The position numbers were made by a program, and so were the translations under genes. This document shows positions 58,672 through 60,935 of a DNA stretch of 64,000 bases, piece by piece. The notes beneath the pieces are model-generated. The model ran no database searches. It saw only the letters and a program-made list of their open reading frames with translations, and was not told the origin of the DNA. The stretch comes from Bifidobacterium catenulatum PV20-2 (GTDB lineage: Bacteria > Actinomycetota > Actinomycetes > Actinomycetales > Bifidobacteriaceae), in contig NZ_CP007456.1 of assembly GCF_000800455.1 (NCBI RefSeq), forward strand, positions 1,364,001-1,428,000, read 5' to 3'. The stretch's first letter is position 1; each line of letters starts with the position of its first letter.

Positions 58672-60087
58672 TCAGCGGCAACGCTTGGTGAGCGGCTGCC
58701 ATGGATCGAGTTCCACCGGTTCGGATTCCAGCAGCACGAGGGTGGCGTCGTCGAGGTATTCCCTGCGGATGATAATCTCGGTCACATAGCGGTCGAACCA
58801 TGCGTCGGAGGCCACGTAGTAGCCGTCCTCGCCGTTGTCCTTGCCCCAGCTGTTCTCCACCTTCCAGCGGTTCGGCTTGCCTTGTTCATCAAGGTTTACG
58901 CCGGTAAGGGTCATGGCATGGTTGCTCGGGCTGTCGCCGTATTCGAGGCCGTGCGCCTTGTCGAAATTGAAATCGGTGCCGAACAGCTGGTCCACGCGCA
59001 CGCTGTCACAGTCGAAATAGCCGGCCGCGCGCAACGAGAATTGGGTGCAGTCGCAGGCAAACCAGATCGGATGGCCGGCGCTGATCTGGTCGACGGCGGC
59101 CTTCTTGAATACGTCAAGCGGCACGTTGACGAATTCCATATCCTCCGCTTCGGAGACATTGGCGGTGTAGCGGATCCGGTAGCGCTTGTTGAACGGACGG
59201 GATTTCATCGGCACGTTGCACAGCGTCACCAGATCATCGACGTCCACCGGCACGTATTTCCTGTAGAATTCCATCGGCGTGATGCCGGTCTCACGGATCT
59301 GCCTGCGCTCGTCCTTGCCGGTCTTTGGATTGTCGGACTTGCCTTCGTCGGCTTTCTTGTCGTTTTTCTTGTCATCATCGCTCACGCGGGCCAGGAAGTC
59401 GAACCTCTCCGGCGGCTCACCAAGCGAGATGGCGCACATGCGGTACACGGTGGACATGTCGTCTTCCTTGACCGACCGCAACTCTTCAATCGAAGCTCCA
59501 GCGGCATGGCGTTCGCGCAAATCCGCCGCGAACTGGCGCAGCCTGCTGTTGAGATACTGTTTGAATGCGTCGGAATCCTTGGAATTGGCGGATTCCGGAT
59601 ATGCGTTCTTCGGCACAAGACCGTACTTGTCAACAAGGGCGGCGAACATCTGCCACCAACCGCCATCGTCGGCCGGACCATAGTTGATCTCCTGGAACAG
59701 GCGGCTGTCGGTCGGCTCGTCGAGCGTGGAAAGCACGTTCTCAAGATATGCGTTGGATTTCTCCATCGCATCCCAGAAAAACAGGTAGGTTTCGGAGAAT
59801 TCGAAATCGTCAAGCCCCCATTTGTGCATAAGCTCATAGCGCAGGGTGTTGAGGGACGCGAACATCCAGCAGCGGCCCGATCTACGCTGGTTGGTGATGG
59901 AGCCCTGCTTCAGTTCGATGGAGAAGTCGCGCGGCAGCGAGCGCTGACCTTTGTAATCGGTGGCGGCTTCGAGCACGCCCGCGGATACTGCCGCGTTGGC
60001 TGCCACGAGATTGGCGCGGTCTGCGTTGAAGTCCTTGGCGTATTGCATGAGACGTTCCGATTTGATTGCCTTGCTATTGTTTGTCAT
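58672..60087 (-). CDS. pepC: C1-family aminopeptidase (PepC / bleomycin hydrolase)
   Basis: A 471-residue cysteine aminopeptidase, usually a hexamer that trims peptides in the cytosol. The catalytic cysteine is in RRSGRCWMFASLN (about residue 67), the histidine in SNHAMTLTGV and the asparagine in VENSWGKDNGEDGYY. A lysine/aspartate-rich insert of about 30 residues sits near the middle. The ATG at 60087 (MTNNSKA) is chosen; the frame runs on upstream but that part is the intergenic repeat array. Confidence 0.92.
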   Translation of the reverse strand: MTNNSKAIKSERLMQYAKDFNADRANLVAANAAVSAGVLEAATDYKGQRSLPRDFSIELKQGSITNQRRSGRCWMFASLNTLRYELMHKWGLDDFEFSETYLFFWDAMEKSNAYLENVLSTLDEPTDSRLFQEINYGPADDGGWWQMFAALVDKYGLVPKNAYPESANSKDSDAFKQYLNSRLRQFAADLRERHAAGASIEELRSVKEDDMSTVYRMCAISLGEPPERFDFLARVSDDDKKNDKKADEGKSDNPKTGKDERRQIRETGITPMEFYRKYVPVDVDDLVTLCNVPMKSRPFNKRYRIRYTANVSEAEDMEFVNVPLDVFKKAAVDQISAGHPIWFACDCTQFSLRAAGYFDCDSVRVDQLFGTDFNFDKAHGLEYGDSPSNHAMTLTGVNLDEQGKPNRWKVENSWGKDNGEDGYYVASDAWFDRYVTEIIIRREYLDDATLVLLESEPVELDPWQPLTKRCR

Positions 60088-60155
60088 ATCGCCGATATTC
60101 GCCGTATGCCTTGACAGAACGGCACGTTCAGCCCCCATTTCGTTCTGTCCCAATT

Positions 60156-60350
60156 CCATTTTGCTTATATGTGGCAGATTCAGACACTTGCGGAAAACCA
60201 TTTCGCTTATATGTGGCACTTTCTTCCACGTAAGCACCTCCATAGCCCCGGAAAAATACCCCCTTGTACGGTTTTCCCCAAAAGTATCTGCCACATATAA
60301 GCGAAATGACATCAGGCGGAATGGGAAATCTGCCACATATAAGTGATTTG
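60156..60350. repeat. Four copies of a 22-bp repeat in two inverted pairs
   Basis: The unit TCTGCCACATATAAGCGAAATG occurs at 60157-60178 and 60198-60219 in one orientation and at 60287-60308 and 60329-60350 in the other, with small differences. Unit starts in each pair are 42 bases apart, about four helical turns, and the inverted pairs flank 67 bases. The array lies 70-263 bases upstream of pepC and ahead of the divergent pseudogene. I have no name for it. Confidence 0.85.
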
Positions 60351-60407
60351 ACTTCGATTTGCGGGTACGCTGATAGCGTGTGAGAGTTCGGAGATGAGGA
60401 GCATATC

Positions 60408-60935
60408 ATGCGTCGTCGCAATTCGATGATGTCCGGATTGCTGGCGGTACAGGGGAAGGCCGACTAGAAGAAGTCGGATGGCGATGCGGCCACGTGGTTG
60501 CCGTCCAACAGAAGTTTCCGTTGCGGAAATGTGGTACGCCAGATTGGTGTGAAGCACAAATATTCGCTGTGGGTCACGCAGGCCGAGAAAGAGGCCATAT
60601 CCAAGGTATTGTCCTCCTGCCCGACGCAGACCGTGCCCGATTACATGGGAGTCAAGGATTCTACAGTCGAGAAGACCACCGAATCCGAGCAGACAGAACA
60701 GACGCAGACCGAACAATCAGCTGAGCAGGCCCAGCAGAATCAGCAAACGACACAGGCACCTGCACCCGAACCCACTCCGGCTCCCGCTCCCGCGCCCCAG
60801 CCAGCGCCACAGCAGGATGTCTACTACCAAAACTGCACCGCAGCACAGGCCGCTGGCACCGCGCCTATCTACCAGGGTCAGCCGGGCTACCGTTCGCAAC
60901 TGGACCGCGACCATGACGGAGTCGCCTGCGAATAA
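60408..60935 (+). pseudogene. DUF1524-excalibur protein with in-frame amber stop
   Basis: From ATG 60408 (with GAGG upstream) the frame reads LLAVQGKAD, then a TAG at 60465-60467, then continues in frame as KKSDGDAATWLPSNRSFRC, VGVKHKYSLWVTQAE-like sequence, a Gln/Pro/Ala-rich linker and a C-terminal excalibur domain with the DxDxDGxxCE calcium-site core (DRDHDGVACE). The first part matches the end of the GmrSD/DUF1524 HNH nuclease domain, whose N-terminal half and HNH residues are missing. It is 5'-truncated and interrupted. Confidence 0.75.

Follow-up and report, generated by a model that had tools for sequence, protein, structure and literature searches.

A dispersed four-site intergenic element in part of the genus Bifidobacterium, with a copy upstream of pepC

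The window analysed here is a stretch of 64,000 nucleotides from Bifidobacterium catenulatum PV20-2 (NZ_CP007456.1, positions 1,364,001 to 1,428,000), and it carries a regular array of short units in the space ahead of pepC. What is this array, and does it serve pepC or something more general? An earlier note on this DNA had described four copies of a 22-bp unit in two inverted pairs, and had offered three readings: a multi-site operator looping around the pepC promoter, the end pair of a mobile element, or a dispersed chromosomal repeat. In bacteria, the usual view of dispersed intergenic repeats is that they are selfish DNA or RNA hairpins. Here, we establish that the array belongs to a dispersed, constrained, four-site intergenic element that is limited to part of Bifidobacterium. 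Our main reading, to which we give a probability of roughly 0.5, is that the array is a copy of this element whose two arms would be joined by a putative sequence-specific protein on the four sites.

The array beside pepC and its copies in the chromosome

The architecture described earlier is borne out. Four 22-bp units are present as two inverted pairs and differ from the quoted unit at 1, 2, 0 and 3 positions. Within either pair the unit starts lie 42 bp apart; the spacers of about 20 bp are unlike between the pairs. The regularity was rightly judged to lie beyond chance, with no such match in 100 dinucleotide-preserving shuffles of the window. The range first quoted (60088-60407) does contain the units, but it is too wide, as the sites span 60157-60350. 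The features of the locus, in window coordinates, are as follows.

58672-60087, minus strand: pepC (Peptidase_C1_2, Pfam E 2.8e-147), the neighbouring gene
60157-60178, minus strand: left outer site, a type A unit, 1 mismatch to the quoted unit
60199-60220, minus strand: left inner site, 2 mismatches; spacing to the left outer site 42 bp
60221-60286, no strand: central segment; the inner cores start 81 bp apart, which falls in the most frequent class among 76 elements
60256-60263: motif ATACCCCC inside the central segment
60287-60308, plus strand: right inner site, exact match to the quoted unit
60329-60350, plus strand: right outer site, 3 mismatches; spacing to the right inner site 42 bp

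The array lies upstream of pepC, 69 bp from its start codon (taken from the sequence), and by our reading is flanked by pepC and a shortened gene on the opposite strand. This second gene (window 60408-60935) has 454 bases more in three relatives, namely G019, B. catenulatum subsp. kashiwanohense (G020) and B. sp. N4G05 (G038). In subsp. kashiwanohense it is a 331-aa frame whose end closely resembles that of the window version. The window still has the start and the portion encoding the Excalibur domain, separated by a stop.

The window belongs to a single 2.37-Mb contig, on which a frame starting at base 78 is presumably DnaA. Core pairs at 42 bp occur 18 times in this genome at up to 3 mismatches, two of them being of a sister type, and the reversed control pattern does not occur. 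The exact 11-bp core of type A, TGCCACATATA, is found 32 times in the chromosome (control 0), against a chance expectation of about one. All 32 copies fall within nine type A elements, located as follows.

Nine type A elements of the chromosome, in kb: 29.7, 78.2, 89.4, 143.0, 155.7, 293.3, 557.3, 560.1 and 1424.3

A chance origin was rejected on the strength of these 32 of 32 cores, together with the shuffles and reversed controls, which gave 0. Seven of the nine elements carry all four sites at the tolerance of the script, and in those at 143.0 and 293.3 kb the left outer site is not recognisable. Six of the nine lie within the first 300 kb after the dnaA-like frame (p 0.0002 if uniform, post hoc), as do 8 of 16 once type B remnants are added (p 0.0003, likewise post hoc); this clustering was noticed afterwards and is not counted as evidence.

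At the places inspected in this chromosome, the sister type B, with core TGCCATATATA, is seen just as partial elements and isolated sites, an observation that counts against our main reading. At 2,086,958-2,087,899 (L092 3459-4390), a type B element is split around a PemK/MazF-MazE pair. Adjoining this split element (L092 4699-6583) lie a TnpB-type protein, OrfB_IS605, and a serine resolvase, a pair that we take to be IS607-like. In B. sp. N4G05, a RelB gene lies between two near-identical type B element centres (L319 2344-3434). A palindromic repeat resembling TGTCCGWTTCTGCAGAAWCGGACA was seen by eye to adjoin type B elements in G060 and B. sp. N4G05 (L310, L314, L318, L322).

Anatomy, distribution and spacing of the element

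The element is about 190-200 bp long and consists of four asymmetric sites of about 22 bp, two in direct orientation per arm; the arms mirror each other across a central segment, which in some lineages is palindromic. All four sites are present in 61 of the 76 elements collected. The starts of the inner cores are 80-83 bp apart in 55 of the 76 and 70-72 bp apart in 17, two classes that differ by about one turn. Of the others, one is at 37 bp, one at 46 bp and two are unreliable; in L324 and L288 (inner distances 113 and 123) an inner site has probably been lost, and the script paired other sites.

Alignment of the oriented elements yields three types, A, B and P. Type A is defined by the core given above, and its centre often contains GGGGGTAT or ATACCCCC; the latter motif, followed by eye, recurs in either orientation, sometimes altered, in the centres of types A and B. 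In type B the centre is polar and contains CTTAGGGGGTAC, and CTCCGGACA occurs in the spacers. Type P (36 elements, aligned without gaps) is centred on a palindrome around TTGGAATTCCAA; its inner sites end in AGCCACCTAG. The unit consensus reads as asymmetric in all three types, with GTAGC ending the outer sites in type P and not in types A or B. When oriented by script the elements are polar, the spacers being unlike between the two arms.

The earlier note had allowed that the unit might occur only here. Searched across Bifidobacterium for copies, orientation and spacing, it proved to be widespread. With up to 2 mismatches allowed, the pair pattern of type A matches 8 of 112 Bifidobacterium genomes; the matches in B. 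pongonis (G059) and G060 belong to other types, which leaves type A in six genomes. A type B/P pattern (up to 3 mismatches) matches 11 of the 112, including all eight of the former, and reversed controls gave 0 throughout. Half-elements found with the type B/P pattern number 48 in B. pongonis (some of them doubled by a mirrored contig), 35 in B. merycicum (G045), 17 in B. sp. N4G05, 14 in G060 and one each in G028 and B. ruminantium (G069). The elements of B. pongonis are a sample of 20 stretches taken from among the matches listed; B. ruminantium and B. erythrocebi (G030) were named by sequence match. The third of the original readings, a dispersed chromosomal repeat, is thus the correct one, given nine elements in this chromosome and relatives of them in 11 of the 112 Bifidobacterium genomes.

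The spacing within the arms is strict. Because the collection of 76 admitted arm distances of 41-43 bp only, it is itself no test of this spacing. With the type B/P pattern set at 43 bp instead of 42 as a control, none of the 112 genomes matched. A scan of a species-genome collection with a free gap (27-57 bp start to start) returned 59 loci, 39 of them from Bifidobacterium; the collection may omit records of, or near, the window's own genome. Of the 50 pair matches in Bifidobacterium, 48 were at 42 bp and two at 41 bp, with two elements on a mirrored contig counted twice. Among the 20 loci from elsewhere, 42 bp occurred in two, both from one Myxococcota MAG (L142, L175), where TATATGTGGCA forms part of an unrelated tandem array of 42-bp period.

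Constraint and turnover at the same loci

Orthologous elements of B. merycicum and B. pongonis were compared without gaps in 11 pairings, in which some elements were used twice, and in the 9 pairings that are one-to-one (values given second). Identity is 351/880 in the flanks (0.40; 0.41), a figure depressed by indels in so far as no gaps were allowed. It is 203/352 in the spacers (0.58; 0.57), 163/198 in the outer tails (0.82; 0.82), 170/198 in the inner tails (0.86; 0.86) and 493/572 in the centre (0.86; 0.86); the tails, as counted, and the centre lie outside the detection pattern. The cores reach 0.85 at outer and 0.94 at inner sites (0.86 and 0.94). Directly behind the outer core three bases, and behind the inner core two, are identical at 66/66 and 44/44 positions of the 11 pairings. 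All these values are biased upward, since the cores and these adjoining bases served in detection.

One intergenic locus can hold different sequence types in different species. The locus marked by what we take to be putP and trpS carries type A in the window's own genome and type P in both B. merycicum and B. pongonis. The loci at 143 and 293 kb are occupied by type A in the window's own genome and by type B in G060 and B. sp. N4G05, and the 560-kb locus is type A in two species and type P in two others.

Where the element is absent from close relatives, the picture often looks like loss. At the 11-kb locus of G060, subsp. kashiwanohense keeps the right end of the element, joined at an ATCTGCC repeat, and at two further loci B. 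sp. N4G05 and subsp. kashiwanohense keep one element end. At a fourth locus the upstream DNA of the relative is simply different. Two type A loci have a differing intergenic stretch in the relatives without the element, and at one type A locus the element lies inside a segment of about 330 bp that is missing from two species. Because sister species lack it at several loci, the element is dispensable locus by locus, which counts against our main reading.

The pepC locus itself was sought in ten relatives. The array is kept in G019, subsp. kashiwanohense and B. sp. N4G05 and absent in G001 and B. ruminantium, with five of the ten remaining uncalled in this tally. Upstream of pepC, all that is left in G001 is a relic of the right outer site, and none was seen in B. 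ruminantium. The left arm has three units in subsp. kashiwanohense, two in the window's own genome, two in B. sp. N4G05 and one in G019. The earlier note had named free variation between close strains as a point to check; between close species the array does change, though by whole 42-bp increments.

Readings of the element

The position of the elements relative to genes bears on the idea of a multi-site operator that controls pepC through looping. A simple home-made gene caller placed 65 of the 76 elements, which are partly orthologous, and 108 background gaps. The elements comprise 27 in convergent, 30 in tandem and 8 in divergent gaps, compared with 22, 61 and 25 in the background (Fisher p 0.005 for the convergent enrichment, 0.11 for divergent gaps). 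The array of the window was itself left unplaced by the caller, an open frame crossing it; since open frames cross elements, some annotated small proteins may be spurious. The short distance to the pepC start codon and a spacing suited to looping would favour an operator. However, the elements do not show the placement upstream of regulated genes that a transcription-factor operator would have, and their convergent bias argues against a common operator role. Furthermore, eight more copies adjoin other genes, no sigma-70-like match lies on the pepC strand within 60000-60480, and close relatives carry one to three units in the left arm. Given the convergent preference and the pepC genes of two relatives that do without the array, looping around the pepC promoter is very improbable.

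The same convergent bias would fit a transcribed, rod-like RNA hairpin at gene 3' ends, acting as a bidirectional terminator, a stability element or an RNase III target. The RNA folds are far more stable than shuffles (z -7.5 for the element of the window, z -13.6 for a type P element), the palindrome in the type P centre clearly co-varies, co-variation in the inner-site columns is weak, and 5 of 7 double changes at inner sites and 5 of 10 at outer sites are compensatory. Set against this, the mirror columns of the outer arms show no pairing beyond column composition among 36 elements, their positions varying independently, and single pair-changing substitutions outnumber compensatory ones in the nine one-to-one pairs by 35:5 at outer sites, 20:5 at inner sites and 34:2 in the centre (singles that keep a G-U pair number 12, 11 and 17, respectively). 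Some mirror columns are even less complementary than expected, which would be explained by polarity, that is, by arm-specific spacers. The spacers are mostly unpaired, and an RNA needs no fixed length of unpaired spacer. Terminator-like sequence amounts to one weak match in the array. A known structured RNA family was rejected, as no Rfam model matches at the array and only tRNA and tmRNA were found in seven further loci. A strict unit sequence with fixed spacing is more easily understood as protein sites on duplex DNA than as a stem, and we regard the hairpin as an unlikely explanation.

Several traits recall a non-autonomous mobile element of REPIN or MITE kind, in which paired sites would be bound by a trans-acting transposase and which would now be mostly immobile. 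The element is dispersed, intergenic and confined to part of the genus; its ends are mirrored, as the idea of a mobile-element end pair had implied; genomes hold from one half-element to some twenty elements; copies are present or absent between close species; and types coexist within a genome. The remainder of that idea fared less well. No target-site duplication was detected in 61 elements, the signal not exceeding that of shuffled flanks, and no transposase-carrying copy was seen in the stretches read. Clean empty sites were not found at seven loci: absence from sister species leaves one element end at three of the loci described above, and elsewhere other intergenic DNA takes its place. 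These replaced stretches and deletion scars, with the lack of target-site duplication, led us to reject a recent transposition that duplicates its target. Copies occupy common loci between species, and resident copies are constrained. An origin in plasmids or phages was likewise rejected, since no plasmid or phage record matched the element and the single match among viral contigs has a spacing of 45 bp rather than 42. A mobile element of this kind is possible, if rather doubtful, as an account of the present copies, and the element may descend from an old one.

We infer that a protein assembly on the element is the most likely mechanism. A sequence-specific protein would bind all four sites on one face of the helix, 42 bp being about four turns of DNA between paired sites, and the bound protein would then join both arms into one nucleoprotein complex. 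More speculatively, such a complex could organise or insulate the DNA between neighbouring, often convergent, transcription units, and the specificity of the binding protein could shift from one lineage to another, which would account for the changes of type in sets of elements. A chromosome-organising nucleoprotein site, in which a lineage-specific protein occupies four phased sites and site and protein change together while the places are kept, is a real but tentative possibility. The strict geometry and the constrained sites predict a specific, findable DNA-binding protein, and the type differences at the same loci offer natural variants for the study of site and protein co-evolution in common gut bacteria.

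Comparison with known systems

ERIC, Correia and other MITE-like intergenic repeats are about 100-200 bp long, with mirrored ends and an intergenic place. The present element is alike in all three respects, its mirrored arms corresponding to terminal inverted repeats, but it has four-site phasing and no target duplication was seen. Transposon ends such as those of Tn7 or Tn552 carry pairs of transposase sites of about 22 bp, mirrored at both ends. The mirrored pairs are similar here; in contrast, there is no conserved outer tip and, in the stretches read, no transposase between the arms. CRISPR arrays are a poor match, as each arm has one to three units, the arms are inverted and the spacers are largely kept between close species.

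REP, BIME and REPIN sequences are described as small dispersed intergenic repeats with inverted doublets and several types, for which co-evolution with a trans-acting DNA-binding protein, the RAYT transposase, has been proposed (PMC3116915, PMC3733652). The present element is likewise small, dispersed and of several types, and its inverted doublets are intergenic, 65 of the 76 lying between two called genes. It differs in that its arms are two direct copies 42 bp apart and its units, with their asymmetric consensus, are not short palindromes tagged GTAG or CGTC. The copy number is also lower, at about ten to twenty per genome compared with usually more than 100 for REPs (PMC2817692).

Within the open-licence literature, none of the titles and abstract openings listed describes the four-site element, and neither PMC3733652 nor PMC2267715 contains a word beginning 'bifido'. 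A motif from the same genus nevertheless invites comparison. In B. animalis lactis, GGGACAG(N)15TGTCCC is reported in 21 copies, 20 of them intergenic and mostly nearer a 3' end (PMC5217627). In genome G007 we found 22 matches to this motif, 11 per strand, with some places matching on both. Loci L368 and L371-L385 of G007 hold inverted units resembling TGCGTAAAAAGGGACAGAT, with T runs after the stem and bounded by TGCGTA; by their sequence these look like intrinsic terminators in both directions. The likeness to the four-site element lies in dispersed intergenic inverted units, and the unit TGCGTAAAAAGGGACAGAT agrees with the element unit at 13 of 19 positions, a score equalled by 20 of 20,000 shuffles. 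The difference lies in close inverted pairs and terminator-like T runs, with no 42-bp direct arms seen. As a lead suggested by this resemblance, the B. animalis motif and the four-site element may be branches of one genus-wide family.
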